Origin: Loxodes magnus | Lineage: Eukaryota; Ciliophora; Karyorelictea; Loxodida; Loxodidae | Length of the DNA stretch: 64,000 nucleotides | Direction: 5' to 3' | Assembly: GCA_946699065.1 (NCBI GenBank) | Contig: CAMPDV010002166.1 | Span: 1 to 64,000, forward strand | Shown: positions 38,350 through 64,000 of the stretch, piece after piece | Numbering within the stretch: the stretch's first letter is position 1 | Layout: the number at the start of each line of letters is the position of its first letter | Notes under the pieces: generated by a model | The model's database searches: none | What the model saw: only the letters and a program-made list of their open reading frames with translations | Told to the model about the DNA's origin: nothing | Translations under genes and position numbers: made by a program

Positions 38350-41300
38350 TCACAAATCCAAATCAAGATCTTCGGCTTATATTGATAAATCTAAATTTTA
38401 GTTAAATATTTTTATTTTTCTATATTTTTCCTTTAGTTTCCTAAATTATTCTTGATATTTAAAATTTTTAAAAGTTACCTTTAAAACCTTCAGGCTTTTA
38501 TAAATAGAATAAGGCTATTAATTTTAATCATTTATAGGAAATGTATCCTTTGAGATTTTATTGTCAGACAAATCTAAAGTTTATAATTTTGTTGCTTTCT
38601 ACAATATTTTAGCTATATCCTAATCATTTAATTTTAAATTATTTAGTTATAAGTAGTTTAATAGGCTAATAGATGCTATTTCATCTATTCAATTTTTATT
38701 TCCTTAAATTACTAACTATCTTAGTTTTAAGCTTTGTAAATATAAATTATTTTACTTCATCACTTGGAAGATTTCTACATTTATTTTACTTAGTTAATCA
38801 AGCTTTACTGACTTTAATCTTTTACATTGTTAGAAAATAAAAGCTAAAGTTTAATGTTATATTTCCTTTAAGTCAATTAAACTTATTTTTTGATACTTCT
38901 ATCCATAATGACCTATTAACTCAAGAGAAGAATTAGTAAGTTTTGCTAAACTTTTTAACTTAAGTGATTAGATGTTACTTGCATTTTATAAAAGGATCTA
39001 CAAATCTTCATCACTAAAACTATCACAGTTTTAAATACTAATTTGCATTAGTTCAGTATATTTATCTGGAAAAAATTACTAAAAAGCTTCAGATGTAAAA
39101 TTTATTTTTAACTTTAAGTTTTAAATTTTTGTATTTCTAATTTTATCTAAAATCTATTATGGTGATTTAAATACTTAAGAATCAATATCAGTTAAATTAG
39201 GATACAAATAAGTAAATTAATAAGTTATTTATGGGTTATTTATGCTTAGTTATTAAATATTTTTCCCCTTTAATTTAAAATATTTTTCTATATGCTTTAA
39301 TTAAAGCTATTCACTTTTAATTTTTAGAACTTTAAGTTTATTTAAATCCATACAATACTCAGTTAAAAATTATCCACTAAGTCCTTAATCATTTTTAATA
39401 TTAGTTACATCATTTAAATCTAATCATTCAAGATTAACTAGCATCTTTATAAATTTTAAATCTCCATCTTTAAAGCATCCTTGAAGTGTTAATCTTTTTA
39501 AATTCTAGTAAGGTAAAAAAGTAGAAAGTATAAACTTCTTATTATAACTGAAAAGAGAAAAGTCTGATAATGTATCTTTTTTTGCTTATAAAAGGATTGT
39601 ACTTTAACCACGTAAAATACTGTAATATAATTTATTTTATAATTAATCTATCAAATTTTGAGATAAATTATTCAGATTAATTACTAACTTTTATATATCC
39701 TAATTCTATATTTATTTTATAAGTCAATTCATCTTGTTCCTTGTGTAAAGTTTATTCTCATTCCAGTACCTAATCCTTAAAACTTACATCTTATATTTAT
39801 AATAATAGAAGAAACTGTTAGTCTTTTATAAAGTACAAATATCCTTGCAACTAAGGAATTCAAATATGTTATTAATAATATTTTAACTTTATTAAATAAG
39901 TATTGAATCATTCTATTCTTTTTATATTCCTAGTTTTCGTTAACTTTAAATAGAAGTCTCCCTTTTATTAGAATCTATCTAAAAGTTGGGAAATTGATTG
40001 TCATTTTATTCCATTTATAAATAAATCTTATTAACATGCAAATCCTATTATCTTCCATAAACCTAATTTAAATTTCATTATCCTTCAAACTAAAAATCCT
40101 AAAACTTAATAAAGCCTTATCCATGTTTATAATCTTTTAATCATTTTCCGTCATAAATATTTCCATCTTTTAAATACATTAGTCCTTAACCATTTTTTTA
40201 TCCTTTAATAAACTAACCTTCATATTTCATACCATCTTTTCATTTATAAATTCCTTATCCATACATTTAATCTTTTTCTCAATCTCCATCATAAGATCTT
40301 CCACTTTTATAGTATAAAATTCCTTTACCATTTTTTTATCCGTTAATAAACTAACCTTCATATTTCTTTCCATCTTCTCATTTATAAATTCCTTATCCAT
40401 TCATTTGATCTTTTTCTCAATTTCCTTCATAATTATCTCCATTTATATATCACATTATTCCTATACCATTTTTTTATCCGTTAATAAACTAACCTTCATA
40501 TTTCTTTCCATCTTTTCATTTATAAATTCCTTATCCATTCATTTGATCTTTTTCTCAATTTCCTTCATAATTATCTCCATTTATATATCACATTATTCCT
40601 ATACCATTTTTTTATCCGTTAATAAACTAACCTTCATATTTCTTTCCATCTTTTCATTTATAAATTCCTTATCCATTCATTTAATTTTTTTCTCAATTTC
40701 CTTCATAATTATCTCCATTTATATATCACATTTTTCCTTTACCATTTTTTTATCCGTTAATAAACTAACCTTCATATTTCTTTCCATCTTTTCATTTAAA
40801 AATTCCTTATCCATTCATTTAATTTTTTTCTCAATCTCCATCATAAGATCATTCACTTTTATAGTATAATATTCCTTTACCATTTTTTATCCGTTAATAA
40901 ACTAACCTTCATATTTCATTCAATTTTTCAATTTATAAACTCCAAAACCATGCATTTAATCTTTTTCTCAATCTCCATCATAAGATCATTCACTTTTATA
41001 GTATAAAATTCCTTTACCATTTTTTTATCCGTTAATAAACTAACCTTCATATTTCTTTCCATCTTCTCATTTATAAATTCCTTATCCATTCATTTGATCT
41101 TTTTCTCAATCTCCATCATAAGATCTTCCACTTTTATAGTATAAAATTCCTTTACCATTTTTTTATCCGTTAATAAACTAACCTTCATATTTCTTTCCAT
41201 CTTCTCATTTATAAATTCCTTATCCATTCATTTGATCTTTTTCTCAATTTCCTTCATAATTATCTCCATTTATATATCACATTATTCCTATACCATTTTT

Positions 41301-41694
41301 TTATCCGTTAATAAACTAACCTTCATATTTCTTTCCATCTTTTCATTTATAAATTCCTTATCCATTCATTTAATTTTTTTCTCAATTTCCTTCATAATTA
41401 TCTCCATTTATATATCACATTTTTCCTTTACCATTTTTTTATCCGTTAATAAACTAACCTTCATATTTCTTTCCATCTTTTCATTTAAAAATTCCTTATC
41501 TTTGCATTTAATCTTTTTCTCAATCACCTTCATAAATATCTCCATTTATATATCACATTATTTCTTTACCATTTTTTTATCCGTTAATAAACTAACCTTC
41601 ATATTTCTTTCCATCTTTTCAATTTATAAACTCCAAAACCATGCATTTAATCTTTTTCTTAATACTCTTGGTTGATTTCAATTCTATTTTCCAT
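38350..41694 (-). CDS. MORN / F-box / leucine-rich-repeat protein, candidate SCF adaptor
   Basis: About 1,114 codons from ATG at 41,694 to TGA at 38,350-38,352 (last residues EDLDLDL). Residues about 10-570 are some two dozen 23-residue MORN repeats of the form YEGQFINGQKNGIG and YEGNWEKDQMNGQG. Residues about 600-650 fit an F-box (NIINNIFEFLSCKDICTLQK). Residues about 710-1,080 are leucine-rich repeats (NLKRLTLQGCFKDGDLKF, LVNLEWLDLNDVT, LQTLDLSDNKIS). MORN repeats usually bind membranes or act as scaffolds; F-box-LRR proteins usually bring substrates to SCF ubiquitin ligases. That role here is inferred. Trp is mostly TGA in the MORN part and again in NKNWIDE. Two single-base indels in the MORN array (about 41,620 and 40,884) cancel each other but put about 740 bp out of frame, so this is a sequencing error or a damaged allele. 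Confidence 0.85.
39990..41670 (-). repeat. MORN-coding tandem array, 138-bp units (two MORN each)
   Basis: The region repeats every 138 bp (46 codons). The plus strand shows recurring TTTTTTTATCCGTTAATAAA and CTAACCTTCATATTTC blocks. Alternate units differ in the segment encoding IMWYINGD or an equivalent. Plus-strand open frames rich in Phe/Ile/Ser across this array are shadows of the MORN frame. Copies near 40,405-40,700 are almost identical, which points to recent unequal exchange. Confidence 0.9.
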
Positions 41695-41998: not shown

Positions 41999-43648
41999 AT
42001 GCTTGAACATGAACAGAAAAAGGGAAATTAATAACCAATTATAGTTAGACAAGAATCATGGAGTTAAATAATTAAGTTATTTAGACTTAAAATTCTTTCA
42101 ATACTAAGGATGAAGGAACAGTAACAGTAGTTACCAATCATTAGCTCGTTACTTCTTAACAAGAACTATAAATCACAAAATAGAATAATGGAAAACTGTA
42201 AGAGTAATATAATGAATTAAACGGATTATATGTTTAACTCATGCAGGATTATGAGCATCAAGTAGAATTGAAGCTAAATGTTTATGCATAAATTTCAGAA
42301 ATATAGAGAAAATAATAAGATGCTAAAACTCAATCTTACTTGAAAGAAATAAAATGAAACGCTTCAACATAAACATTTTTAATTGATTAAATTTAAGAAG
42401 ATTAGCAGATTGAAATTTTAGAAAATTCAAATAATTAGACATCATATGTGATGAATTGGGATAGCCAAACAAAATTTGGAAAGAGAAGTTGAAGAGATGC
42501 CAAATTTAATCAAGACACTTTAAACTTAAAATAGTCAAAATTTGGGTTTAATGAAATAAATATTGAAGAGATTTTAAATAAATACGAATTTAAAGACGCC
42601 TAACTAATTCAATTTATAAGTTCCAATAAATGATGAAATTAGAATCTTTTCACTTTAGTAGGCAATAGATTTATAACTTTATCTTGCAAACTAAACCATG
42701 CTACGTGTGATGGAAATGAAATAGATATAAAAATCGATAATAAATTGAGCGAAAAGTACGATTCATTGACATTATTCATTATAATAAGTTAAAGGTAATA
42801 TATCAAAAATTGCCCCAAATTGCTTAACATATAAATTCATCAAAATGAGAAGATTCTCTGTATTTATGAACCAGGAATAAAAGGAGGAGTTTTGACTACA
42901 TCATAAGAAATTCATTGATTTATAAAAAACGGAAATTATATAGTTAAAACGCTGCTACAAACTGATTTTAGAATTAACTATATTGTCCTTTAAAAATAAC
43001 TAAGACTCAAAGGAGGTGTAGAGAACAATGTAGAATAACCATAATAATGCAAACAAGAATTTGGGAATTAAGAAATAAAGATGCTTATCTATAAGCAAAG
43101 AGAGATAGGCATAATAAAGCTTGGACATATTAACATAAATGGAATTGGAAGCAAGCAATTAAACGTGGAAGAATTTATACGAAATAATGACTTAAACATT
43201 TTCTCAATTAATGAAACGTGATAAAAATAAGACTATCCTCCAATACTTATTAATGGATATAGGACGTATTTCAAGAACTCAGGAAAAGGAGGAGGAGTTT
43301 GCTTAATTGCTAGAGATTAACTTAACAGCACGGAATAGAATAACATATAACAATTAGCTCAAGAGAGGTTCGTTACAATCAAACTAGATAATATATTCAT
43401 AACATCTTGTTACATGCCAGATAACAGCAAGAGTGAAAATATAAAAGACAAAGCATATGAATATATAAATGTATTCCTTAATTCTTTTCCTGACAACTCA
43501 CATATATTATTAGGAGATTTTAACGCTCTACTATAAGACTTTGGGGATAACCCTATTAACAACTATGACAATACAAATAGATTCTAAGAATTCGCTCTCT
43601 AAAACGATTTAGAAATAATAAACGATGCAAATATGAACACATGCTTAT
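41999..43648 (+). mobile_element. 5' part of a non-LTR (LINE-type) retrotransposon with APE-like endonuclease, 3'-truncated
   Basis: From ATG 42,058 one frame stays open to the junction at about 43,648 (roughly 530 codons) under UAR = Gln and UGA = Trp. The N-terminal two-thirds are Gln-rich with no recognised domain. The end is an AP-endonuclease/EEP domain: LGHININGIG, FSINETW (catalytic Glu, about residue 386), GGGVCLI, TSCYMPDN and ILLGDFNA (about residue 486). Trp in ETW is a TGA, and five other TGA codons occur (one a TGATGA pair). A better-looking N-terminus (MLEHEQKKGNQQPIIV) lies in another frame from 41,999; a single-base indel or a 14-nt GT-AG segment (GTTAAATAATTAAG) would join the two. 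No reverse transcriptase remains, because WD40 repeat DNA starts in mid-domain. The loss is at the 3' side, the opposite of usual LINE 5' truncation. Confidence 0.85.
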
Positions 43649-46600
43649 ATCGGGAAGTGGAGATTATACGGTGAGACTATGGGACGTCAAGACAGGTACC
43701 TGTAAGACCATGAGTGGTCACACTAATTGTGTATATGCTGTGGCTATATCCAGTGATTCAGAGTTCATCGTATCGGGAAGTTGAGATTAGACGGTGAGAC
43801 TATGGGACGTCAAGACAGGTACCTGTAAGACCATGAGTGGTCACACTAATTGTGTATATGCTGTGGCTATATCCAGTGATTCAGAGTTCATCGTATCGGG
43901 AAGTTGAGATTAGACGGTGAGACTATGGGACGTCAAGACAGGTACCTGTAAGACCATGAGTGGTCACACTAATTGTGTATATGCTGTGGCTATATCCAGT
44001 GATTCAGAGTTCATCGTATCGGGAAGTAGAGATTATACGGTGAGACTATGGGACGTCAAGACAGGTACCTGTAAGACCATGAGTGGTCACACTAATTGTG
44101 TATATGCTGTGGCTATATCCAGTGATTCAGAGTTCATCGTATCGGGAAGTAGAGATTATACGGTGAGACTATGGGACGTCAAGACAGGTACCTGTAAGAC
44201 CATGAGTGGTCACACTAGTTATGTATCATCTGTGGCTATATCCAGTGATTCAGAGTACATCGTATCGGGAAGTAGAGATTATACGGTGAGACTATGGGAC
44301 GTCAAGACAGGTACCTGTAAGACCATGAGTGGTCACACTAATTGTGTATATGCTGTGGCTATATCCAGTGATTCAGAGTACATCGTATCGGGAAGTAGAG
44401 ATTATACGGTGAGACTATGGGACGTCAAGACAGGTACCTGTAAGACCATGAGTGGTCACACTAATTGTGTATATGCTGTGGCTATATCCAGTGATTCAGA
44501 GTTCATCGTATCGGGAAGTAGAGATTATACGGTGAGACTATGGGACGTCAAGACAGGTACCTGTAAGACCATGAGTGGTCACACTAATTTTGTATATGCT
44601 GTGGCTATATCCAGTGATTCAGAGTTCATCGTATCGGGAAGTCATGATTAGACGGTGAGACTATGGGACGTCAAGACAGGTACCTGTAAGACCATGAGTG
44701 GTCACACTAGTTATGTATCATCTGTGGCTATATCCAGTGATTCAGAGTTCATCGTATCGGGAAGTAGAGATTATACGGTGAGACTATGGGACGTCAAGAC
44801 AGGTACCTGTAAGACCATGAGTGGTCACACAAATTTTGTATGATCTGTGGCTATATCCAGTGATTCAGAGTTCATCGTATCGGGAAGTTGAGATTAGACG
44901 GTGAGACTATGGGACGTCAAGACAGGTACCTGTAAGACCATGAGTGGTCACACAAATTTTGTATGATCTGTGGCTATATCCAGTGATTCAGAGTTCATCG
45001 TATCGGGAAGTAGAGATTATACGGTGAGACTATGGGACTTCAAGACAGGTACCTGTAAGACCATGAGTGGTCACACTAATTGCGTATATGCTGTGGCTAT
45101 ATCCAGTGATTCAGAGTTCATCGTATCGGGAAGTTGAGATTAGACGGTGAGACTATGGGACGTCAAGACAGGTACCTGTAAGACCATGAGTGGTCACACT
45201 AATTGTGTATATGCTGTGGCTATATCCAGTGATTCAGAGTTCATCGTATCGGGAAGTAGAGATTATACGGTGAGACTATGGGACGTCAAGACAGGTACCT
45301 GTAAGACCATGAGTGGTCACACAAATTTTGTATGATCTGTGGCTATATCCAGTGATTCAGAGTTCATCGTATCGGGAAGTAGAGATTATACGGTGAGACT
45401 ATGGGACGTCAAGACAGGTACCTGTAAGACCATGAGTGGTCACACTAGTTATGTATCATCTGTGGCTATATCCAGTGATTCAGAGTACATCGTATCGGGA
45501 AGTAGAGATTATACGGTGAGACTATGGGACGTCAAGACAGGTCCTGTAAGACCATGAGTGGTCACACTAGTCATGTATGATCTGTGGCTATATCCAGTGA
45601 TTCAGAGTTCATCGTATCGGGAAGTTGAGATTAGACGGTGAGACTATGGGACGTCAAGACAGGTACCTGTAAGACCATGAGTGGTCACACTAGTCATGTA
45701 TGATCTGTGGCTATATCCAGTGATTCAGAGTTCATCGTATCGGGAAGTAGAGATTATACGGTGAGACTATGGGACGTCAAGACAGGTACCTGTAAGACCA
45801 TGAGTGGTCACACTAGTTATGTATCATCTGTGGCTATATCCAGTGATTCAGAGTACATCGTATCGGGAAGTAGAGATTATACGGTGAGACTATGGGACGT
45901 CAAGACAGGTACCTGTAAGACCATGAGTGGTCACACTAATTGTGTATATGCTGTGGCTATATCCAGTGATTCAGAGTTCATCGTATCGGGAAGTTGAGAT
46001 TAGACGGTGAGACTATGGGACGTCAAGACAGGTACCTGTAAGACCATGAGTGGTCACACAAATTTTGTATGATCTGTGGCTATATCCAGTGATTCAGAGT
46101 TCATCGTATCGGGAAGTAGAGATTATACGGTGAGACTATGGGACTTCAAGACAGGTACCTGTAAGACCATGAGTGGTCACACTAATTGCGTATATGCTGT
46201 GGCTATATCCAGTGATTCAGAGTTCATCGTATCGGGAAGTTGAGATTAGACGGTGAGACTATGGGACGTCAAGACAGGTACCTGTAAGACCATGAGTGGT
46301 CACACTAGTCATGTATGATCTGTGGCTATATCCAGTGATTCAGAGTTCATCGTATCGGGAAGTTGAGATTAGACGGTGAGACTATGGGACGTCAAGACAG
46401 GTACCTGTAAGACCATGAGTGGTCACACAAATTTTGTATGATCTGTGGCTATATCCAGTGATTCAGAGTTCATCGTATCGGGAAGTAGAGATTATACGGT
46501 GAGACTATGGGACGTCAAGACAGGTACCTGTAAGACCATGAGTGGTCACACTAGTTATGTATCATCTGTGGCTATATCCAGTGATTCAGAGTACATCGTA

Positions 46601-49600
46601 TCGGGAAGTAGAGATTATACGGTGAGACTATGGGACGTCAAGACAGGTCCTGTAAGACCATGAGTGGTCACACTAGTCATGTATGATCTGTGGCTATATC
46701 CAGTGATTCAGAGTTCATCGTATCGGGAAGTTGAGATTAGACGGTGAGACTATGGGACGTCAAGACAGGTACCTGTAAGACCATGAGTGGTCACACTAGT
46801 CATGTATGATCTGTGGCTATATCCAGTGATTCAGAGTTCATCGTATCGGGAAGTAGAGATTATACGGTGAGACTATGGGACGTCAAGACAGGTACCTGTA
46901 AGACCATGAGTGGTCACACTAGTTATGTATCATCTGTGGCTATATCCAGTGATTCAGAGTACATCGTATCGGGAAGTAGAGATTATACGGTGAGACTATG
47001 GGACGTCAAGACAGGTACCTGTAAGACCATGAGTGGTCACACTAATTGTGTATATGCTGTGGCTATATCCAGTGATTCAGAGTTCATCGTATCGGGAAGT
47101 TGAGATTAGACGGTGAGACTATGGGACGTCAAGACAGGTACCTGTAAGACCATGAGTGGTCACACAAATTTTGTATGATCTGTGGCTATATCCAGTGATT
47201 CAGAGTTCATCGTATCGGGAAGTTGAGATTAGACGGTGAGACTATGGGACGTCAAGACAGGTACCTGTAAGACCATGAGTGGTCACACTAATTGTGTATA
47301 TGCTGTGGCTATATCCAGTGATTCAGAGTTCATCGTATCGGGAAGTAGAGATTATACGGTGAGACTATGGGACGTCAAGACAGGTACCTGTAAGACCATG
47401 AGTGGTCACACTAATTGTGTATATGCTGTGGCTATATCCAGTGATTGAGTTCATCGTATCGGGAAGTTGAGATTAGACGGTGAGACTATGGGACGTCAAG
47501 ACAGGTACCTGTAAGACCATGAGTGGTCACACTAATTGTGTATATGCTGTGGCTATATCCAGTGATTCAGAGTTCATCGTATCGGGAAGTTGAGATTAGA
47601 CGGTGAGACTATGGGACGTCAAGACAGGTACCTGTAAGACCATGAGTGGTCACACTAATTGTGTATATGCTGTGGCTATATCCAGTGATTCAGAGTTCAT
47701 CGTATCGGGAAGTAGAGATTATACGGTGAGACTATGGGACGTCAAGACAGGTACCTGTAAGACCATGAGTGGTCACACTAGTTGTGTATAGGCTGTGGCT
47801 ATATCCAGTGATTCAGAGTTCATCGTATCGGGAAGTTGAGATTATACGGTGAGACTATGGGACGTCAAGACAGGTACCTGTAAGACCATGAGTGGTCACA
47901 CTAGTTATGTATCATCTGTGGTTATATCCAGTGATTCAGAGTTCATCGTATCGGGAAGTAGAGATTATACGGTGAGACTATGGGACGTCAAGACAGGTAC
48001 CTGTAAGACCATGAGTGGTCACACTAGTTATGTATCATCTGTGGCTATATCCAGTGATTCAGAGTACATCGTATCGGGAAGTAGAGATTATACGGTGAGA
48101 CTATGGGACGTCAAGACAGGTACCTGTAAGACCATGAGTGGTCACACTAATTGTGTATATGCTGTGGCTATATCCAGTGATTCAGAGTTCATCGTATCGG
48201 GAAGTTGAGATTAGACGGTGAGACTATGGGACGTCAAGACAGGTACCTGTAAGACCATGAGTGGTCACACAAATTTTGTATGATCTGTGGCTATATCCAG
48301 TGATTCAGAGTTCATCGTATCGGGAAGTTGAGATTAGACGGTGAGACTATGGGACGTCAAGACAGGTACCTGTAAGACCATGAGTGGTCACACAAATTTT
48401 GTATGATCTGTGGCTATATCCAGTGATTCAGAGTTCATCGTATCGGGAAGTAGAGATTATACGGTGAGACTATGGGACGTCAAGACAGGTACCTGTAAGA
48501 CCATGAGTGGTCACACTAATTGTGTATATGCTGTGGCTATATCCAGTGATTCAGAGTTCATCGTATCGGGAAGTTGAGATTAGACGGTGAGACTATGGGA
48601 CGTCAAGACAGGTACCTGTAAGACCATGAGTGGTCACACTAATTGTGTATATGCTGTGGCTATATCCAGTGATTCAGAGTTCATCGTATCGGGAAGTTGA
48701 GATTAGACGGTGAGACTATGGGACGTCAAGACAGGTACCTGTAAGACCATGAGTGGTCACACTAATTGTGTATATGCTGTGGCTATATCCAGTGATTCAG
48801 AGTTCATCGTATCGGGAAGTTGAGATTAGACGGTGAGACTATGGGACGTCAAGACAGGTACCTGTAAGACCATGAGTGGTCACACTAATTGTGTATATGC
48901 TGTGGCTATATCCAGTGATTCAGAGTTCATCGTATCGGGAAGTAGAGATTATACGGTGAGACTATGGGACGTCAAGACAGGTACCTGTAAGACCATGAGT
49001 GGTCACACTAGTTGTGTATAGGCTGTGGCTATATCCAGTGATTCAGAGTTCATCGTATCGGGAAGTTGAGATTATACGGTGAGACTATGGGACGTCAAGA
49101 CAGGTACCTGTAAGACCATGAGTGGTCACACTAGTTATGTATCATCTGTGGTTATATCCAGTGATTCAGAGTTCATCGTATCGGGAAGTAGAGATTATAC
49201 GGTGAGACTATGGGACGTCAAGACAGGTACCTGTAAGACCATGAGTGGTCACACTAGTTATGTATCATCTGTGGCTATATCCAGTGATTCAGAGTACATC
49301 GTATCGGGAAGTAGAGATTATACGGTGAGACTATGGGACGTCAAGACAGGTACCTGTAAGACCATGAGTGGTCACACTAATTGTGTATATGCTGTGGCTA
49401 TATCCAGTGATTCAGAGTTCATCGTATCGGGAAGTTGAGATTAGACGGTGAGACTATGGGACGTCAAGACAGGTACCTGTAAGACCATGAGTGGTCACAC
49501 AAATTTTGTATGATCTGTGGCTATATCCAGTGATTCAGAGTTCATCGTATCGGGAAGTTGAGATTAGACGGTGAGACTATGGGACGTCAAGACAGGTACC

Positions 49601-52600
49601 TGTAAGACCATGAGTGGTCACACAAATTTTGTATGATCTGTGGCTATATCCAGTGATTCAGAGTTCATCGTATCGGGAAGTAGAGATTATACGGTGAGAC
49701 TATGGGACGTCAAGACAGGTACCTGTAAGACCATGAGTGGTCACACTAATTGTGTATATGCTGTGGCTATATCCAGTGATTCAGAGTTCATCGTATCGGG
49801 AAGTTGAGATTAGACGGTGAGACTATGGGACGTCAAGACAGGTACCTGTAAGACCATGAGTGGTCACACAGATTATGTATATGCTGTGGCTATATCCAGT
49901 GATTCAGAGTTCATCGTATCGGGAAGTAGAGATAATACGGTGAGACTATGGGACGTCAAGACAGGTACCTGTAAGACCATGAGTGGTCACACAAATTTTG
50001 TATGATCTGTGGCTATATCCAGTGATTCAGAGTTCATCGTATCGGGAAGTAGAGATTATACGGTGAGACTATGGGACGTCAAGACAGGTACCTGTAAGAC
50101 CATGAGTGGTCACACAAATTTTGTATGATCTGTGGCTATATCCAGTGATTCAGAGTTCATCGTATCGGGAAGTAGAGATTATACGGTGAGACTATGGGAC
50201 GTCAAGACAGGTACCTGTAAGACCATGAGTGGTCACACTAATTGTGTATATGCTGTGGCTATATCCAGTGATTCAGAGTTCATCGTATCGGGAAGTTGAG
50301 ATTAGACGGTGAGACTATGGGACGTCAAGACAGGTACCTGTAAGACCATGAGTGGTCACACTAGTTATGTATCATCTGTGGCTATATCCAGTGATTCAGA
50401 GTTCATCGTATCGGGAAGTAGAGATTATACGGTGAGACTATGGGACGTCAAGACAGGTACCTGTAAGACCATGAGTGGTCACACTAATTGTGTATATGCT
50501 GTGGCTATATCCAGTGATTCAGAGTTCATCGTATCGGGAAGTTGAGATTAGACGGTGAGACTATGGGACGTCAAGACAGGTACCTGTAAGACCATGAGTG
50601 GTCACACAGATTATGTATATGCTGTGGCTATATCCAGTGATTCAGAGTTCATCGTATCGGGAAGTAGAGATAATACGGTGAGACTATGGGACGTCAAGAC
50701 AGGTACCTGTAAGACCATGAGTGGTCACACAAATTTTGTATGATCTGTGGCTATATCCAGTGATTCAGAGTTCATCGTATCGGGAAGTTAAGATTATACG
50801 GTGAGACTATGGGACGTCAAGACAGGTACCTGTAAGACCATGAGTGGTCACACTAATTGTGTATATGCTGTGGCTATATCCAGTGATTCAGAGTTCATCG
50901 TATCGGGAAGTGGAGATAATACGGTGAGACTATGGGACGTCAAGACAGGTACCTGTAAGACCATGAGTGGTCACACTAATTGTGTATATGCTGTGGCTAT
51001 ATCCAGTGATTCAGAGTTCATCGTATCGGGAAGTAGAGATTATACGGTGAGACTATGGGACGTCAAGACAGGTACCTGTAAGACCATGAGTGGTCACACA
51101 AATTTTGTATGATCTGTGGCTATATCCAGTGATTCAGAGTTCATCGTATCGGGAAGTAGAGATTATACGGTGAGACTATGGGACGTCAAGACAGGTACCT
51201 GTAAGACCATGAGTGGTCACACTAATTGTGTATATGCTGTGGCTATATCCAGTGATTCAGAGTTCATCGTATCGGGAAGTTGAGATTAGACGGTGAGACT
51301 ATGGGACGTCAAGACAGGTACCTGTAAGACCATGAGTGGTCACACTAATTGTGTATATGCTGTGGCTATATCCAGTGATTCAGAGTTCATCGTATCGGGA
51401 AGTGGAGATTAGACGGTGAGACTATGGGACGTCAAGACAGGTACCTGTAAGACCATGAGTGGTCACACTAATTGTGTATGATCTGTGGCTATATCCAGTG
51501 ATTCAGAGTTCATCGTATCGGGAAGTAGAGATAATACGGTGAGACTATGGGACGTCAAGACAGGTACCTGTAAGACCATGAGTGGTCACACTAATTGTGT
51601 ATATGCTGTGGCTATATCCAGTGATTCAGAGTTCATCGTATCGGGAAGTAGAGATTATACGGTGAGACTATGGGACGTCAAGACAGGTACCTGTAAGACC
51701 ATGAGTGGTCACACTAGTTATGTATGATCTGTGGCTATATCCAGTGATTCAGAGTTCATCGTATCGGGAAGTAGAGATAATACGGTGAGACTATGGGACG
51801 TCAAGACAGGTACCTGTAAGACCATGAGTGGTCACACTAATTTTGTATGATCTGTGGCTATATCCAGTGATTCAGAGTTCATCGTATCGGGAAGTAGAGA
51901 TTATACGGTGAGACTATGGGACGTCAAGAAAGGTACCTGTAAGACCATGAGTGGTCACACAAATTTTGTATGATCTGTGGCTATATCCAGTGATTCAGAG
52001 TTCATCGTATCGGGAAGTAGAGATAATACGGTGAGACTATGGGACGTCAAGACAGGTACCTGTAAGACCATGAGTGGTCACACAAATTTTGTATGATCTG
52101 TGGCTATATCCAGTGATTCAGAGTTCATCGTATCGGGAGGTTAAGATTATACGGTGAGACTATGGGACGTCAAGACAGGTACCTGTAAGACCATGAGTGG
52201 TCACACTAGTTGTGTATAGGCTGTGGCTATATCCAGTGATTCAGAGTTCATCGTATCGGGAAGTAGAGATAATACGGTGAGACTATGGGACGTCAAGACA
52301 GGTACCTGTAAGACCATGAGTGGTCACACTAGTCATGTATGATCTGTGGCTATATCCAGTGATTCAGAGTTCATCGTATCGGGAAGTAGAGATTATACGG
52401 TGAGACTATGGGACGTCAAGACAGGTACCTGTAAGACCATGAGTGGTCACACTAATTGTGTATATGCTGTGGCTATATCCAGTGATTCAGAGTTCATCGT
52501 ATCGGGAAGTAGAGATTATACGGTGAGACTATGGGACGTCAAGACAGGTACCTGTAAGACCATGAGTGGTCACACTAATTTTGTATGATCTGTGGCTATA

Positions 52601-55600
52601 TCCAGTGATTCAGAGTTCATCGTATCGGGAAGTAGAGATTATACGGTGAGACTATGGGACGTCAAGACAGGTACCTGTAAGACCATGAGTGGTCACACTA
52701 ATTGTGTATATGCTGTGGCTATATCCAGTGATTCAGAGTTCATCGTATCGGGAAGTAGAGATTATACGGTGAGACTATGGGACGTCAAGACAGGTACCTG
52801 TAAGACCATGAGTGGTCACACTAATTGTGTATATGCTGTGGCTATATCCAGTGATTCAGAGTTCATCGTATCGGGAAGTAGAGATTATACGGTGAGACTA
52901 TGGGACGTCAAGACAGGTACCTGTAAGACCATGAGTGGTCACACAAATTTTGTATGATCTGTGGCTATATCCAGTGATTCAGAGTTCATCGTATCGGGAA
53001 GTGGAGATTATACGGTGAGACTATGGGACGTCAAGACAGGTACCTGTAAGACCATGAGTGGTCACACTAGTTGTGTATAGGCTGTGGCTATATCCAGTGA
53101 TTCAGAGTTCATCGTATCGGGAAGTGGAGATTATACGGTGAGACTATGGGACGTCAAGACAGGTACCTGTAAGACCATGAGTGGTCACACAAATTTTGTA
53201 TGATCTGTGGCTATATCCAGTGATTCAGAGTTCATCGTATCGGGAAGTAGAGATAATACGGTGAGACTATGGGACGTCAAGACAGGTACCTGTAAGACCA
53301 TGAGTGGTCACACTAGTCATGTATGATCTGTGGCTATATCCAGTGATTCAGAGTTCATCGTATCGGGAAGTAGAGATTATACGGTGAGACTATGGGACGT
53401 CAAGACAGGTACCTGTAAGACCATGAGTGGTCACACTAATTGTGTATATGCTGTGGCTATATCCAGTGATTCAGAGTTCATCGTATCGGGAAGTAGAGAT
53501 TATACGGTGAGACTATGGGACGTCAAGACAGGTACCTGTAAGACCATGAGTGGTCACACTAGTTGTGTATAGGCTGTGGCTATATCCAGTGATTCAGAGT
53601 TCATCGTATCGGGAAGTAGAGATAATACGGTGAGACTATGGGACGTCAAGACAGGTACCTGTAAGACCATGAGTGGTCACACAAATTTTGTATGATCTGT
53701 GGCTATATCCAGTGATTCAGAGTTCATCGTATCGGGAAGTAGAGATTATACGGTGAGACTATGGGACGTCAAGACAGGTACCTGTAAGACCATGAGTGGT
53801 CACACAAATTTTGTATGATCTGTGGCTATATCCAGTGATTCAGAGTTCATCGTATCGGGAAGTAGAGATTATACGGTGAGACTATGGGACGTCAAGACAG
53901 GTACCTGTAAGACCATGAGTGGTCACACTAGTTGTGTATGATCTGTGGCTATATCCAGTGATTCAGAGTTCATCGTATCGGGAAGTTGAGATTATACGGT
54001 GAGACTATGGGACGTCAAGACAGGTACCTGTAAGACCATGAGTTGTCACACTAGTTATGTATCATCTGTGGCTATATCCAGTGATTCAGAGTTCATCGTA
54101 TCGGGAAGTAGAGATTATACGGTGAGACTATGGGACGTCAAGACAGGTACCTGTAAGACCATGAGTGGTCACACTAATTGTGTATATGCTGTGGCTATAT
54201 CCAGTGATTCAGAGTTCATCGTATCGGGAAGTAGAGATTATACGGTGAGACTATGGGACGTCAAGACAGGTACCTGTAAGACCATGAGTGGTCACACTAG
54301 TTGTGTATAGGCTGTGGCTATATCCAGTGATTCAGAGTTCATCGTATCGGGAAGTAGAGATAATACGGTGAGACTATGGGACGTCAAGACAGGTACCTGT
54401 AAGACCATGAGTGGTCACACAAATTTTGTATGATCTGTGGCTATATCCAGTGATTCAGAGTTCATCGTATCGGGAAGTAGAGATTATACGGTGAGACTAT
54501 GGGACGTCAAGACAGGTACCTGTAAGACCATGAGTGGTCACACAAATTTTGTATGATCTGTGGCTATATCCAGTGATTCAGAGTTCATCGTATCGGGAAG
54601 TAGAGATTATACGGTGAGACTATGGGACGTCAAGACAGGTACCTGTAAGACCATGAGTGGTCACACTAGTTGTGTATGATCTGTGGCTATATCCAGTGAT
54701 TCAGAGTTCATCGTATCGGGAAGTTGAGATTATACGGTGAGACTATGGGACGTCAAGACAGGTACCTGTAAGACCATGAGTGGTCACACTAGTCATGTAT
54801 GATCTGTGGCTATATCCAGTGATTCAGAGTTCATCGTATCGGGAAGTAGAGATTATACGGTGAGACTATGGGACGTCAAGACAGGTACCTGTAAGACCAT
54901 GAGTGGTCACACTAATTGTGTATATGCTGTGGCTATATCCAGTGATTCAGAGTTCATCGTATCGGGAAGTAGAGATTATACGGTGAGACTATGGGACGTC
55001 AAGACAGGTACCTGTAAGACCATGAGTGGTCACACTAGTTGTGTATAGGCTGTGGCTATATCCAGTGATTCAGAGTTCATCGTATCGGGAAGTAGAGATA
55101 ATACGGTGAGACTATGGGACGTCAAGACAGGTACCTGTAAGACCATGAGTGGTCACACAAATTTTGTATGATCTGTGGCTATATCCAGTGATTCAGAGTT
55201 CATCGTATCGGGAAGTAGAGATTATACGGTGAGACTATGGGACGTCAAGACAGGTACCTGTAAGACCATGAGTGGTCACACAAATTTTGTATGATCTGTG
55301 GCTATATCCAGTGATTCAGAGTTCATCGTATCGGGAAGTAGAGATTATACGGTGAGACTATGGGACGTCAAGACAGGTACCTGTAAGACCATGAGTGGTC
55401 ACACTAGTTGTGTATGATCTGTGGCTATATCCAGTGATTCAGAGTTCATCGTATCGGGAAGTTGAGATTATACGGTGAGACTATGGGACGTCAAGACAGG
55501 TACCTGTAAGACCATGAGTGGTCACACTAATTGTGTATGATCTGTGGCTATATCCAGTGATTCAGAGTTCATCGTATCGGGAAGTAGAGATAATACGGTG

Positions 55601-56321
55601 AGACTATGGGACGTCAAGACAGGTACCTGTAAGACCATGAGTGGTCACACTAATTTTGTATGATCTGTGGCTATATCCAGTGATTCAGAGTTCATCGTAT
55701 CGGGAAGTAGAGATTATACGGTGAGACTATGGGACGTCAAGAAAGGTACCTGTAAGACCATGAGTGGTCACACAAATTTTGTATGATCTGTGGCTATATC
55801 CAGTGATTCAGAGTTCATCGTATCGGGAAGTAGAGATAATACGGTGAGACTATGGGACGTCAAGACAGGTACCTGTAAGACCATGAGTGGTCACACAAAT
55901 TTTGTATGATCTGTGGCTATATCCAGTGATTCAGAGTTCATCGTATCGGGAGGTTAAGATTATACGGTGAGACTATGGGACGTCAAGACAGGTACCTGTA
56001 AGACCATGAGTGGTCACACTAATTGTGTATATGCTGTGGCTATATCCAGTGATTCAGAGTTCATCGTATCGGGAAGTAGAGATTATACGGTGAGACTATG
56101 GGACGTCAAGACAGGTACCTGTAAGACCATGAGTGGTCACACTAATTGTGTATATGCTGTGGCTATATCCAGTGATTCAGAGTTCATCGTATCGGGAAGT
56201 AGAGATTATACGGTGAGACTATGGGACGTCAAGACAGGTACCTGTAAGACCATGAGTGGTCACACTAATTGTGTATATGCTGTGGCTATATCCAGTGATT
56301 CAGAGTTCATCGTATCGGGAA
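43648..56321 (+). repeat. Left WD40 array: about 103 tandem 123-bp units
   Basis: Each 123-bp unit encodes one 41-residue WD40 blade (core VAISSDSEFIVSGS, then TVRLWDVKTGTCKTMSGHT). No start, N-terminal domain or stop outside the repeat is visible; the array begins inside a unit, fused out of frame to the retroelement. Bases are nearly invariant outside a few codons. These are the two after GHT (N-C, N-F, S-Y, S-C, S-H, D-Y), the two after V (TAT-GCT, TGA-TCT, TCA-TCT, TAG-GCT), and the residues flanking D in SGSxDx (R, G, W, H or Q; then Y, N or Q). Three indels break the frame: one base missing at 45,541 and 46,647, and two bases missing near 47,447. Larger blocks are duplicated: nine units (45.4/46.5 kb), ten units (47.85/49.08 kb) and six units (53.57/54.31/55.05 kb). 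Confidence 0.96.
47447..56321 (+). pseudogene. Uninterrupted WD40-only reading frame, about 72 blades
   Basis: After the last indel the array stays in one frame for 8.9 kb if TGA = Trp and TAA/TAG = Gln. With TGA as stop it would be fragments of at most about 127 codons. It encodes only near-identical blades, about ten propellers' worth, with no start or partner domain before it, so a functional mRNA is doubtful. It may be a silent reservoir, a decayed gene body, or the middle of a gene whose ends lie elsewhere or were lost at the inversion. Confidence 0.5.
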
Positions 56322-56330
56322 GTTCAACTT
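56322..56330. other. Head-on inversion junction of the WD40 arrays
   Basis: The plus strand reads GGGAAGTT, then one C, then AACTTCCC: the left array stops inside the SGS codons and the complement of the same motif follows at once. The spacer is a single base. Units next to the junction differ between the arms (TNCVYA run on the left, TNFVWS then TNCVYA with SEY on the right), so this is not an exact fold-back. Confidence 0.95.
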
Positions 56331-59300
56331 CCCGATACGATGAACTCTGAATCACTGGATATAGCCACAGATCATACAAAATTTGTGTGACCACTCATGG
56401 TCTTACAGGTACCTGTCTTGACGTCCCATAGTCTCACCGTATAATCTCTACTTCCCGATACGATGTACTCTGAATCACTGGATATAGCCACAGCATATAC
56501 ACAATTAGTGTGACCACTCATGGTCTTACAGGTACCTGTCTTGACGTCCCATAGTCTCACCGTATAATCTCCACTTCCCGATACGATGAACTCTGAATCA
56601 CTGGATATAGCCACAGATCATACACAATTAGTGTGACCACTCATGGTCTTACAGGTACCTGTCTTGACGTCCCATAGTCTCACCGTATAATCTCTACTTC
56701 CCGATACGATGAACTCTGAATCACTGGATATAGCCACAGATCATACATAACTAGTGTGACCACTCATGGTCTTACAGGTACCTGTCTTGACGTCCCATAG
56801 TCTCACCGTATAATCTCTACTTCCCGATACGATGAACTCTGAATCACTGGATATAGCCACAGCCTATACACAACTAGTGTGACCACTCATGGTCTTACAG
56901 GTACCTGTCTTGACGTCCCATAGTCTCACCGTATAATCTCTACTTCCCGATACGATGAACTCTGAATCACTGGATATAGCCACAGCATATACACAATTAG
57001 TGTGACCACTCATGGTCTTACAGGTACCTGTCTTGACGTCCCATAGTCTCACCGTATAATCTCTACTTCCCGATACGATGAACTCTGAATCACTGGATAT
57101 AGCCACAGATCATACAAAATTTGTGTGACCACTCATGGTCTTACAGGTACCTGTCTTGACGTCCCATAGTCTCACCGTATAATCTCTACTTCCCGATACG
57201 ATGAACTCTGAATCACTGGATATAGCCACAGATGATACACAACTAGTGTGACCACTCATGGTCTTACAGGTACCTGTCTTGACGTCCCATAGTCTCACCG
57301 TATAATCTCTACTTCCCGATACGATGAACTCTGAATCACTGGATATAGCCACAGCATATACATGACTAGTGTGACCACTCATGGTCTTACAGGTACCTGT
57401 CTTGACGTCCCATAGTCTCACCGTCTAATCATGACTTCCCGATACGATGAACTCTGAATCACTGGATATAGCCACAGATCATACAAAATTTGTGTGACCA
57501 CTCATGGTCTTACAGGTACCTGTCTTGACGTCCCATAGTCTCACCGTATAATCTCTACTTCCCGATACGATGAACTCTGAATCACTGGATATAGCCACAG
57601 CATATACACAATTAGTGTGACCACTCATGGTCTTACAGGTACCTGTCTTGACGTCCCATAGTCTCACCGTATAATCTCTACTTCCCGATACGATGAACTC
57701 TGAATCACTGGATATAGCCACAGATCATACAAAATTTGTGTGACCACTCATGGTCTTACAGGTACCTGTCTTGACGTCCCATAGTCTCACCGTATTATCT
57801 CTACTTCCCGATACGATGAACTCTGAATCACTGGATATAGCCACAGCATATACACAATTAGTGTGACCACTCATGGTCTTACAGGTACCTGTCTTGACGT
57901 CCCATAGTCTCACCGTATAATCTCAACTTCCCGATACGATGAACTCTGAATCACTGGATATAGCCACAGATCATACACAACTAGTGTGACCACTCATGGT
58001 CTTACAGGTACCTGTCTTGACGTCCCATAGTCTCACCGTATAATCTCTACTTCCCGATACGATGAACTCTGAATCACTGGATATAGCCACAGATCATACA
58101 AAATTTGTGTGACCACTCATGGTCTTACAGGTACCTGTCTTGACGTCCCATAGTCTCACCGTATAATCTCTACTTCCCGATACGATGAACTCTGAATCAC
58201 TGGATATAGCCACAGATCATACAAAATTTGTGTGACCACTCATGGTCTTACAGGTACCTGTCTTGACGTCCCATAGTCTCACCGTATTATCTCTACTTCC
58301 CGATACGATGAACTCTGAATCACTGGATATAGCCACAGCCTATACACAACTAGTGTGACCACTCATGGTCTTACAGGTACCTGTCTTGACGTCCCATAGT
58401 CTCACCGTATAATCTCTACTTCCCGATACGATGAACTCTGAATCACTGGATATAGCCACAGCATATACACAATTAGTGTGACCACTCATGGTCTTACAGG
58501 TACCTGTCTTGACGTCCCATAGTCTCACCGTATAATCTCTACTTCCCGATACGATGAACTCTGAATCACTGGATATAGCCACAGATCATACATGACTAGT
58601 GTGACCACTCATGGTCTTACAGGTACCTGTCTTGACGTCCCATAGTCTCACCGTATAATCTCAACTTCCCGATACGATGAACTCTGAATCACTGGATATA
58701 GCCACAGATCATACACAACTAGTGTGACCACTCATGGTCTTACAGGTACCTGTCTTGACGTCCCATAGTCTCACCGTATAATCTCTACTTCCCGATACGA
58801 TGAACTCTGAATCACTGGATATAGCCACAGATCATACAAAATTTGTGTGACCACTCATGGTCTTACAGGTACCTGTCTTGACGTCCCATAGTCTCACCGT
58901 ATAATCTCTACTTCCCGATACGATGAACTCTGAATCACTGGATATAGCCACAGATCATACAAAATTTGTGTGACCACTCATGGTCTTACAGGTACCTGTC
59001 TTGACGTCCCATAGTCTCACCGTATTATCTCTACTTCCCGATACGATGAACTCTGAATCACTGGATATAGCCACAGCCTATACACAACTAGTGTGACCAC
59101 TCATGGTCTTACAGGTACCTGTCTTGACGTCCCATAGTCTCACCGTATAATCTCTACTTCCCGATACGATGAACTCTGAATCACTGGATATAGCCACAGC
59201 ATATACACAATTAGTGTGACCACTCATGGTCTTACAGGTACCTGTCTTGACGTCCCATAGTCTCACCGTATAATCTCTACTTCCCGATACGATGAACTCT

Positions 59301-62300
59301 GAATCACTGGATATAGCCACAGATCATACATGACTAGTGTGACCACTCATGGTCTTACAGGTACCTGTCTTGACGTCCCATAGTCTCACCGTATTATCTC
59401 TACTTCCCGATACGATGAACTCTGAATCACTGGATATAGCCACAGATCATACAAAATTTGTGTGACCACTCATGGTCTTACAGGTACCTGTCTTGACGTC
59501 CCATAGTCTCACCGTATAATCTCCACTTCCCGATACGATGAACTCTGAATCACTGGATATAGCCACAGCCTATACACAACTAGTGTGACCACTCATGGTC
59601 TTACAGGTACCTGTCTTGACGTCCCATAGTCTCACCGTATAATCTCCACTTCCCGATACGATGAACTCTGAATCACTGGATATAGCCACAGATCATACAA
59701 AATTTGTGTGACCACTCATGGTCTTACAGGTACCTGTCTTGACGTCCCATAGTCTCACCGTATAATCTCTACTTCCCGATACGATGAACTCTGAATCACT
59801 GGATATAGCCACAGCATATACACAATTAGTGTGACCACTCATGGTCTTACAGGTACCTGTCTTGACGTCCCATAGTCTCACCGTATAATCTCTACTTCCC
59901 GATACGATGAACTCTGAATCACTGGATATAGCCACAGCATATACACAATTAGTGTGACCACTCATGGTCTTACAGGTACCTGTCTTGACGTCCCATAGTC
60001 TCACCGTATAATCTCTACTTCCCGATACGATGAACTCTGAATCACTGGATATAGCCACAGATCATACAAAATTTGTGTGACCACTCATGGTCTTACAGGT
60101 ACCTGTCTTGACGTCCCATAGTCTCACCGTATAATCTCTACTTCCCGATACGATGAACTCTGAATCACTGGATATAGCCACAGCATATACACAATTAGTG
60201 TGACCACTCATGGTCTTACAGGTACCTGTCTTGACGTCCCATAGTCTCACCGTATAATCTCTACTTCCCGATACGATGAACTCTGAATCACTGGATATAG
60301 CCACAGCATATACACAATTAGTGTGACCACTCATGGTCTTACAGGTACCTGTCTTGACGTCCCATAGTCTCACCGTATAATCTCTACTTCCCGATACGAT
60401 GAACTCTGAATCACTGGATATAGCCACAGCATATACACAATTAGTGTGACCACTCATGGTCTTACAGGTACCTGTCTTGACGTCCCATAGTCTCACCGTA
60501 TAATCTTAACCTCCCGATACGATGAACTCTGAATCACTGGATATAGCCACAGATCATACAAAATTTGTGTGACCACTCATGGTCTTACAGGTACCTGTCT
60601 TGACGTCCCATAGTCTCACCGTATTATCTCTACTTCCCGATACGATGAACTCTGAATCACTGGATATAGCCACAGATCATACAAAATTTGTGTGACCACT
60701 CATGGTCTTACAGGTACCTTTCTTGACGTCCCATAGTCTCACCGTATAATCTCTACTTCCCGATACGATGAACTCTGAATCACTGGATATAGCCACAGAT
60801 CATACAAAATTAGTGTGACCACTCATGGTCTTACAGGTACCTGTCTTGACGTCCCATAGTCTCACCGTATTATCTCTACTTCCCGATACGATGAACTCTG
60901 AATCACTGGATATAGCCACAGATCATACACAATTAGTGTGACCACTCATGGTCTTACAGGTACCTGTCTTGACGTCCCATAGTCTCACCGTATAATCTCA
61001 ACTTCCCGATACGATGAACTCTGAATCACTGGATATAGCCACAGATCATACACAACTAGTGTGACCACTCATGGTCTTACAGGTACCTGTCTTGACGTCC
61101 CATAGTCTCACCGTATAATCTCTACTTCCCGATACGATGAACTCTGAATCACTGGATATAGCCACAGATCATACAAAATTTGTGTGACCACTCATGGTCT
61201 TACAGGTACCTGTCTTGACGTCCCATAGTCTCACCGTATAATCTCTACTTCCCGATACGATGAACTCTGAATCACTGGATATAGCCACAGATCATACAAA
61301 ATTTGTGTGACCACTCATGGTCTTACAGGTACCTGTCTTGACGTCCCATAGTCTCACCGTATTATCTCTACTTCCCGATACGATGAACTCTGAATCACTG
61401 GATATAGCCACAGCCTATACACAACTAGTGTGACCACTCATGGTCTTACAGGTACCTGTCTTGACGTCCCATAGTCTCACCGTATAATCTCTACTTCCCG
61501 ATACGATGAACTCTGAATCACTGGATATAGCCACAGCATATACACAATTAGTGTGACCACTCATGGTCTTACAGGTACCTGTCTTGACGTCCCATAGTCT
61601 CACCGTATAATCTCTACTTCCCGATACGATGAACTCTGAATCACTGGATATAGCCACAGATCATACATGACTAGTGTGACCACTCATGGTCTTACAGGTA
61701 CCTGTCTTGACGTCCCATAGTCTCACCGTATAATCTCAACTTCCCGATACGATGAACTCTGAATCACTGGATATAGCCACAGATCATACACAACTAGTGT
61801 GACCACTCATGGTCTTACAGGTACCTGTCTTGACGTCCCATAGTCTCACCGTATAATCTCTACTTCCCGATACGATGAACTCTGAATCACTGGATATAGC
61901 CACAGATCATACAAAATTTGTGTGACCACTCATGGTCTTACAGGTACCTGTCTTGACGTCCCATAGTCTCACCGTATAATCTCTACTTCCCGATACGATG
62001 AACTCTGAATCACTGGATATAGCCACAGATCATACAAAATTTGTGTGACCACTCATGGTCTTACAGGTACCTGTCTTGACGTCCCATAGTCTCACCGTAT
62101 TATCTCTACTTCCCGATACGATGAACTCTGAATCACTGGATATAGCCACAGCCTATACACAACTAGTGTGACCACTCATGGTCTTACAGGTACCTGTCTT
62201 GACGTCCCATAGTCTCACCGTATAATCTCTACTTCCCGATACGATGAACTCTGAATCACTGGATATAGCCACAGCATATACACAATTAGTGTGACCACTC

Positions 62301-64000
62301 ATGGTCTTACAGGTACCTGTCTTGACGTCCCATAGTCTCACCGTATAATCTCTACTTCCCGATACGATGAACTCTGAATCACTGGATATAGCCACAGCAT
62401 ATACACAATTAGTGTGACCACTCATGGTCTTACAGGTACCTGTCTTGACGTCCCATAGTCTCACCGTATAATCTCTACTTCCCGATACGATGAACTCTGA
62501 ATCACTGGATATAGCCACAGCATATACACAATTAGTGTGACCACTCATGGTCTTACAGGTACCTGTCTTGACGTCCCATAGTCTCACCGTATAATCTTAA
62601 CCTCCCGATACGATGAACTCTGAATCACTGGATATAGCCACAGATCATACAAAATTTGTGTGACCACTCATGGTCTTACAGGTACCTGTCTTGACGTCCC
62701 ATAGTCTCACCGTATTATCTCTACTTCCCGATACGATGAACTCTGAATCACTGGATATAGCCACAGATCATACAAAATTTGTGTGACCACTCATGGTCTT
62801 ACAGGTACCTTTCTTGACGTCCCATAGTCTCACCGTATAATCTCTACTTCCCGATACGATGAACTCTGAATCACTGGATATAGCCACAGATCATACAAAA
62901 TTAGTGTGACCACTCATGGTCTTACAGGTACCTGTCTTGACGTCCCATAGTCTCACCGTATTATCTCTACTTCCCGATACGATGAACTCTGAATCACTGG
63001 ATATAGCCACAGATCATACACAATTAGTGTGACCACTCATGGTCTTACAGGTACCTGTCTTGACGTCCCATAGTCTCACCGTATAATCTCAACTTCCCGA
63101 TACGATGAACTCTGAATCACTGGATATAGCCACAGATCATACACAACTAGTGTGACCACTCATGGTCTTACAGGTACCTGTCTTGACGTCCCATAGTCTC
63201 ACCGTATAATCTCTACTTCCCGATACGATGAACTCTGAATCACTGGATATAGCCACAGATCATACAAAATTTGTGTGACCACTCATGGTCTTACAGGTAC
63301 CTGTCTTGACGTCCCATAGTCTCACCGTATAATCTCTACTTCCCGATACGATGAACTCTGAATCACTGGATATAGCCACAGATCATACAAAATTTGTGTG
63401 ACCACTCATGGTCTTACAGGTACCTGTCTTGACGTCCCATAGTCTCACCGTATTATCTCTACTTCCCGATACGATGAACTCTGAATCACTGGATATAGCC
63501 ACAGCCTATACACAACTAGTGTGACCACTCATGGTCTTACAGGTACCTGTCTTGACGTCCCATAGTCTCACCGTATAATCTCTACTTCCCGATACGATGA
63601 ACTCTGAATCACTGGATATAGCCACAGCATATACACAATTAGTGTGACCACTCATGGTCTTACAGGTACCTGTCTTGACGTCCCATAGTCTCACCGTATA
63701 ATCTCTACTTCCCGATACGATGAACTCTGAATCACTGGATATAGCCACAGATCATACATGACTAGTGTGACCACTCATGGTCTTACAGGTACCTGTCTTG
63801 ACGTCCCATAGTCTCACCGTATAATCTCAACTTCCCGATACGATGAACTCTGAATCACTGGATATAGCCACAGATCATACACAACTAGTGTGACCACTCA
63901 TGGTCTTACAGGTACCTGTCTTGACGTCCCATAGTCTCACCGTATAATCTCTACTTCCCGATACGATGAACTCTGAATCACTGGATATAGCCACAGATCA
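56327..64000 (-). repeat. Right WD40 array, inverted: about 62 tandem 123-bp units, continuing past the window
   Basis: Same 123-bp unit on the minus strand, in a single open frame (TGA = Trp) across the whole 7.7 kb, with no indel seen. It shares rare marker variants with the left array: KKGT instead of KTGT at 60,717 and 62,808 (left: 51,928 and 55,741), GGQDY near 60,507 and 62,600 (left: about 52,137 and 55,950), and one SHDQ near 57,430 (left: about 44,640). The order of variants from about 60.2 to 62.1 kb mirrors the left array from 56.32 back to about 54.3 kb, so both arms are copies of one parental array. Internal duplications are 17 units (2,091 bp) and six units (738 bp). No gene ends are visible. 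Confidence 0.96.

Follow-up and report, generated by a model that had tools for sequence, protein, structure and literature searches.

The closest described systems are the HNWD/NWD genes of Podospora anserina (HET-D, HET-E, and HET-R). In the portions of the two source papers that we draw on, the WD40 repeats of these genes are over 80% identical within a gene, are homogenised between genes too, and have high dN/dS on the predicted interaction surface (PMC12222747, PMC4986451). In HET-D/E, high dN/dS is reported for positions 10, 11, 12, 14, 30, 32, and 39 of the repeat (PMC12222747). Highly-Repetitive WD40 proteins, with high internal identity and variable hotspots, are known from prokaryotes, fungi, and protists (Hu et al. 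2017, PMC5587647); that text does not mention ciliates, Paramecium, or Tetrahymena, and the part of it available to us describes no satellite, unlike what we report here. Among solved folds or sequences of near-identical blades, the closest to ours are 2YMU, PkwA (5YZV), and the designed WRAP propellers, but these are bacterial or designed and are 38-42% identical to the Loxodes propeller. In the literature that we searched, nothing was found on hypervariable WD40 repeats in ciliates or on WD40 in Loxodes, and searches for ciliate self-recognition with WD40 or for ciliate receptors under diversifying selection returned only unrelated work, judged by titles.

The macronuclear assembly of Loxodes magnus is described as 706 Mbp, with 231 Mbp of tandem repeats and with UGA as either tryptophan or stop; its authors suspect misassembly of low-complexity repeats, and WD40 does not appear in the main text (PMC11441545). 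The assembly that we used has 705,730,643 bases. We analysed the first 64,000 nucleotides of contig CAMPDV010002166.1 (C2166:1-64000), which we call the window. A first-pass annotation of this sequence had described an array of WD40 units with about six hypervariable codons and had compared it to fungal non-self recognition proteins. This ciliate has a gene family of WD40 proteins that are diversified on the predicted top face, probably an HNWD-like strategy, along with an abundant satellite made of their blades that is likely non-coding. The finding is more interesting in the genes than in the array.

The Loxodes unit varies at the same places as the repeats of HET-D/E. At one offset, its five most variable codons all correspond to HET-D/E positions (11, 12, 14, 30, and 32; P = 2.8e-5 in the fixed register, P = 0.0011 over all offsets). 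The Loxodes units hardly vary at positions 10 and 39. The register of the unit against HET-E is our assumption, based on spacing, and the position numbers alone come from the paper. The analogy with HNWD and HET-E that had been drawn at first holds for these positions and for the homogenised framework, but not for the partner domains. The Loxodes family has a RING-like finger and a pentapeptide segment, and neither NACHT nor HET was among the nine Pfam families found at E up to 10 in residues 1-438. Other differences from the HNWD genes are that the Loxodes proteins have a single propeller of seven blades, with homogenisation in about three to five of them; that the units are of 41 residues instead of 42; and that Loxodes has a satellite of units.

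The array in the window

The array contains about 165 WD40 units within the window, as first described, with about 103 on the + strand and 62 on the - strand (123 bp each, by TRF). The + arm (43648-56323) has 103.1 copies according to TRF. Segmentation by wrap-around alignment gives 102 full units in this arm, and three of these have frameshifting deletions of 1 bp. At 56323-56327 the array turns round, and it continues on the - strand (56327-64000, 62.4 copies by TRF) and beyond the window to contig position 69621. With this extension, the - arm has 107 full units, none of them frameshifted. The inversion was missing from the first-pass annotation, as was the reading of TGA as tryptophan: the frame of the units needs TGA as tryptophan as well as TAA and TAG as glutamine.

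A BLAST comparison of the contig with itself identified an inverted duplication whose arms of 7391 bp (48933-56323 and 62231-69621) are 100% identical, and the left flank of the array recurs inverted on the right, also at 100% (at least 722 bp in the stretch compared). Because 7391 bp of the array and the flank recur inverted at 100% identity, the units in the window are not all independent. The palindrome is possibly real and possibly an assembly artefact; it has no bearing on the arrays of other contigs. On its left, the array borders a repeat-element ORF (42983-43647, + strand) that looks like a LINE endonuclease by eye and for which no Pfam match was found. A search with 43000-43640 yielded 1,324 candidates, of which 40 were scored; apart from the window's own copy, all 39 match at 98%.

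In the 206 indel-free units of the array on this contig (64001-69621 included), 29 of the 41 codons have no amino-acid change. The six codons that had been singled out as variable are indeed those with common variation: codons 4 and 5 (the two after GHT), 7 and 8 (the two after the V), and 23 and 25 (which flank the Asp). As had also been noted, the units are nearly invariant at silent sites: among the 206 units, codon 3 may be ACT or ACA and, in just two units, codon 5 differs silently (TGT/TGC), and there are no other silent differences. To count distinct variants we used 1,358 indel-free array units from 12 contigs. At codons 4, 5, 7, 23, and 25 there are 55 replacement variants and 1 silent variant; if codons 8 and 17 are added, the ratio is 63:3, versus 3.1-5.3:1 expected from single-base changes. 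Nearly all of the changes are replacements. We rejected noise as the source of this variation, which falls on specific codons that are common to arrays and genes.

The silent ACA at codon 3 accompanies particular top-face clusters, mostly those with a residue other than Ser at codon 4, and it does so in arrays and genes alike. For example, it goes with the cluster HYYA in 26 of 26 array cases and 3 of 3 gene cases. It could be a mark of origin or else a trace of how the variants arise.

A family of RING-like/WD40 genes

The window also contains an intact gene of the family (16345-18724, + strand), which we predict to encode a RING-like finger, a pentapeptide segment, and a seven-bladed WD40 propeller. 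In our gene model, exon 1 (16345-18588) carries the finger, the pentapeptide segment, and the propeller, as identified partly with Pfam, and it is open if TAA and TAG are read as glutamine and TGA as tryptophan. A predicted phase-0 intron of 31 nt (18589-18619, GTAAG...TTTAG) separates it from exon 2 (18620-18724), which encodes the end of the last blade and ends with a TGA stop at 18722-18724. By pattern, 12 of 14 paralogous loci have an intron of this kind. The TGA stop follows the conserved last exon in 9 of the 14; of the other five, two are cut off before the stop, one has an early TGA, and two were not found.

The finger (16360-16491, + strand) has the pattern C-x2-C-x15-CGC-x2-C-x2-C-x12-C-x2-H, and all eight ligands are present in the 10 of 10 gene loci that were read there (two of these loci are identical). 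The spacing is like that of RING ligases of the TRIM32/TRIM23 kind, with His as the eighth ligand. Similarity by sequence is weak: zf-C3HC4_4 (E = 0.29) and zf-RING_5 (E = 0.63) are below the Pfam cut-offs, and matches to the TRIM32, TRIM23, and CBL chains in PDB have E values of 0.4-3.4, below any threshold. A single-sequence structure model of the N-terminal part has a pLDDT of 36.7, too low to be of use. We take the recognition domain of the Loxodes family to be different from TRIM/B30.2. The RING-like end might act as a ubiquitin-ligase effector, although we are doubtful of this. The pentapeptide-repeat segment (17488-17652, + strand; the range is that of PF13599) matches PF00805 with E = 1.7e-07, which is above the cut-off of that family.

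Pfam finds seven WD40 stretches in the window gene. Three of the blades (17806-18174, + strand, from blade extraction; TRF reports 17781-18215) are homogenised and have the framework of the array units. An AlphaFold2 model of the propeller, built from window sequences only, has the strands of seven blades (pLDDT 91.9, pTM 0.90), Foldseek matches it to 5YZV (E = 3.3e-30), and the residues of the DHSW tetrad are present, as in a seven-bladed WD40 fold. In blade 2 of the model, variable residues 52 and 53 are in the loop before strand a, 55 is at the start of strand a, and 71 and 73 are in the loop from strand b to strand c. In the units, the a-b and c-d loops do not vary. The variable residues are thus predicted to be in the d-a and b-c loops and at the start of strand a, and to lie together on the top face instead of being scattered at random over the propeller, which agrees with the first suggestion that they line the binding face. 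We assigned the face from the order of the strands and general knowledge of the fold, not from coordinates.

A published rule for WD40 proteins points to the same residues. Hotspots of the top face are R1-2, R1, and D-1, and they are located by the pattern V, R1, R2, V and by the residue before the tetrad Asp, according to the part of the paper available to us (PMC3419727). Applied to our unit, this rule makes codons 5, 7, and 23 R1-2, R1, and D-1, and codon 8 is R2.

The first 494 residues of the window gene have at least 87 family matches (the best 87 of 41,667 first-look candidates were scored), and the C-terminal pattern of the family occurs at 116 places in the assembly, of which 100 were listed. 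By eye, the two lists overlap at 10 loci, which gives at least 177 places with family sequence, some of them on duplicate contigs, as is the case for the gene that C319 and C2166 have in common. We read the starts of the genes at three places that had only the C-terminal match. Those on C13 and C306 also encode a finger of this kind, and the one on C267 is frameshifted and has lost one Cys of the finger. Broken copies do exist in the family, as L037 (C154) and L057 (C267) are frameshifted. Another member, L051 (C1281:76650-77500), has a fused blade along with an unusually high number of blades, and is perhaps an intermediate between gene and array. A search of phage DNA and a scan of IMG/VR with one pattern gave no match; a search of phage proteins gave two records, with 33-35% identity within the WD40 part.

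Selection and homogenisation in the genes

We read 24 gene loci over the blades and left out L030, which is identical to the window gene. We recognised 77 blades and required at least 30 of the 35 framework residues, which removed 7 blades and left 70 from 23 genes. The most variable codons in these blades are 23, 25, 7, 5, and 4, at each of which between 7 and 13 amino acids occur; at codon 8, Ser or Ala predominates. Across the 70 blades, piN/piS is 3.28 at the five codons, compared to 0.39 for the framework (95% ranges of 2.27-5.56 and 0.26-0.64, respectively, from one blade per gene and 300 resamplings of genes); codon 8 has a value of 2.70. Homogenisation lowers silent divergence inside the blades, so we also compared dN at the five codons to dS in the N-terminal region. 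For the nine full-length genes, the median dN at the five codons is 0.898, versus an N-terminal dS of 0.459, and the five-codon dN is the higher of the two in 34 of 36 gene pairs (21 of 21 without the suspect genes L035 and L037).

Like the HNWD genes, the Loxodes family appears to exchange repeats among its members. Framework dS is 0.102 (0.059 without codon 3) compared to the N-terminal 0.459, and it is the lower of the two in 31 of 36 pairs, or 17 of 21 without L035 and L037; the exceptions are 5 of the 36 pairs. Blade identity within genes is high, as in the HNWD genes (85.8%, 75 core-blade pairs), and between genes it is 84.1%. Since blades are scarcely more alike within genes than between them, exchange works family-wide.

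In our reading, genes of this family combine a RING-like finger with a long middle region, a pentapeptide segment, and a seven-bladed propeller. Their middle blades are shuffled and homogenised across the family, which leaves the framework nearly fixed down to silent sites, and selection that favours replacement changes probably maintains the diversity of five top-face codons per blade. The diversifying selection that had been suggested for the array units is apparent in the genes, which have both the replacement excess and the homogenised framework, and the arrays seem to have inherited the pattern.

An abundant satellite

A 32-bp piece of the framework has 359,617 exact matches in the assembly, and its reversed control has none. 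At one copy per 123-bp unit this is about 44 Mb, or 6.3% of the assembly. The piece is present in 1,242 of 1,390 sampled units, so the total number of units should exceed 359,617, but the assembly may have collapsed or duplicated repeats, which would shift the figure up or down. The sample comprises 17 array stretches on 12 contigs, with 1,390 full units (1,358 indel-free, 489 distinct); these stretches were the best matches of a DNA search and are not a random sample.

Single-base variants of the framework in the arrays comprise 75 replacement and 26 silent changes, which is what neutrality predicts (P = 1.0 versus a neutral ratio of 2.85, with an expected range of 2.56-3.19). In the genes the corresponding counts are 32:31 (P = 0.0001 versus neutral), and the arrays differ from the genes (Fisher P = 0.0025, or P = 0.0091 with all variants). 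Framework variants that occur on a single contig and in none of the gene blades are also neutral by this measure (39:10, P = 0.42). At the 5' edges of arrays, no gene start was found in 4 of 4 edges seen. On C4 and C6 the array begins mid-unit, in differing unit phases, and the several hundred bases of AT-rich DNA before it contain no blade or gene sequence.

Could the arrays instead be giant genes that encode WD40 solenoids or proteins with several propellers? The frame is kept in 10 of the 17 stretches, for up to 107 full units, and indels are rare (0-1.6 indel bases per kb, versus 4.8 and 6.0 in two other satellites of the window, which are AT-rich and may be older). There are thirteen distinct indel patterns in the arrays beside about a hundred framework substitutions. 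Youth is another explanation of the low indel rate, and 31 of the 1,390 units are frameshifted, the framework ratio is neutral, structural residues are replaced, the array in the window is inverted midway, and the 5' edges lie in unrelated DNA without a start or a first blade. We consider it very unlikely that the arrays are coding, and we rejected a single giant protein in view of the neutral ratio, the frameshifts, the gene-less edges, and the inversion. The original idea that the array itself is the recognition protein is not supported, on these grounds and because there are many such arrays. Judging from the sequence, the array in the window is most likely a young non-coding satellite: long tandem arrays of the unit occur at many sites, without purifying selection on the peptide. 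We also rejected an origin of the window array from the gene next to it, as the three hypervariable types of this gene are missing from the array. In the literature that we searched, nothing was found on satellites derived from WD40 or other protein-coding DNA.

Blade DNA may have escaped from the genes, been amplified in tandem (perhaps as excised circles), and landed in unrelated DNA. The escaped blades would have carried the diversified codons along and reshuffled them by recombination. Within a stretch, there are 15-43 types, which are combinations of 5-18 N-side clusters with 7-14 C-side clusters, and this favours recombination.

Alternative explanations

The arrays and genes share variants. 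Of the hypervariable variant codons in the arrays, 37 of 56 are also found in gene blades, compared to 33 of 106 framework variants (P = 2.6e-5), which points to a common pool. One alternative is that the satellite is an archive of donors: like the silent cassettes of antigenic variation, its blades would convert those of the genes, and in this way maintain the uniform framework and bring in new combinations on the top face. Array units far outnumber gene blades, the silent haplotype context is common to both, and the sampled arrays hold 317 hypervariable combinations, which include 9 of the 68 combinations in the genes; 4 of the 70 gene blades are identical to array units. However, one-way escape from the genes would produce the same sharing. 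Also, the 5-18 and 7-14 clusters of a stretch are few compared to 68 combinations in 70 blades, the array variants V6A (60 of 1,358 units) and H2Q (36 of 1,358) are missing from the 70 gene blades, and the window array lacks the three types of the window gene. We think a donor role is unlikely. The same goes for its larger consequence, which we find similarly improbable: a protist immune or allorecognition repertoire in which hundreds of thousands of non-coding blades rewrite the faces of RING-like/WD40 receptors by gene conversion. A mutational hotspot at the five codons, in place of selection, seems to us most improbable. The arrays have a slight excess of private variants at these codons (13 of 62 versus 12% expected, P = 0.049), but only 3 of 12 one-step new array variants are at the five codons, far below their concentration in the genes, and a hotspot leaves the 55:1 ratio unexplained. 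As new and private variants are hardly concentrated at these codons, the arrays carry the pattern and do not generate it.

If selection on the genes maintains the variation, then what do the faces bind? By analogy to the fungal proteins, the family may be a set of receptors that differ in their binding faces and together serve as a recognition repertoire, and we consider the case for this to be evenly balanced. A somewhat less probable account is that the family was diversified for many fixed endogenous partners, such as the substrates of adaptors or ubiquitin ligases, and not for non-self recognition. The variable hotspots of Highly-Repetitive WD40 proteins have been read as adaptation to partners, in the part of the text available to us (PMC5587647). 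On the other hand, 68 combinations in 70 blades suggest a continually reshuffled repertoire, and the near-equal identity of blades within and between genes is also unfavourable to fixed partners. If a recognition repertoire is correct, then the concerted-yet-hypervariable WD40 strategy that was worked out in fungi extends to a ciliate with other partner domains, and fungi and a ciliate would have converged on the same residues. In addition, a protein repeat has turned into an abundant satellite here, so the direction of exchange and the source of receptor diversity could be tested with long reads from several strains.

Other features of the window

Scans of the window for tRNAs and Rfam families found nothing. 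It contains three other satellites: a 99-bp satellite at 20828-36069 (some 155 copies; it is one of the two satellites compared above, at about 6.0 indel bases per kb), and 37-bp and 138-bp satellites at 1-7087 and 40115-41663 (TRF). The 138-bp satellite continues on C319. That contig also has a second copy of the window region (L012-L014, C319:160000-189999), which is 99.1% identical over 16 kb and is either a haplotype or a duplicate contig; its N-terminal match to the family is identical to the window gene.
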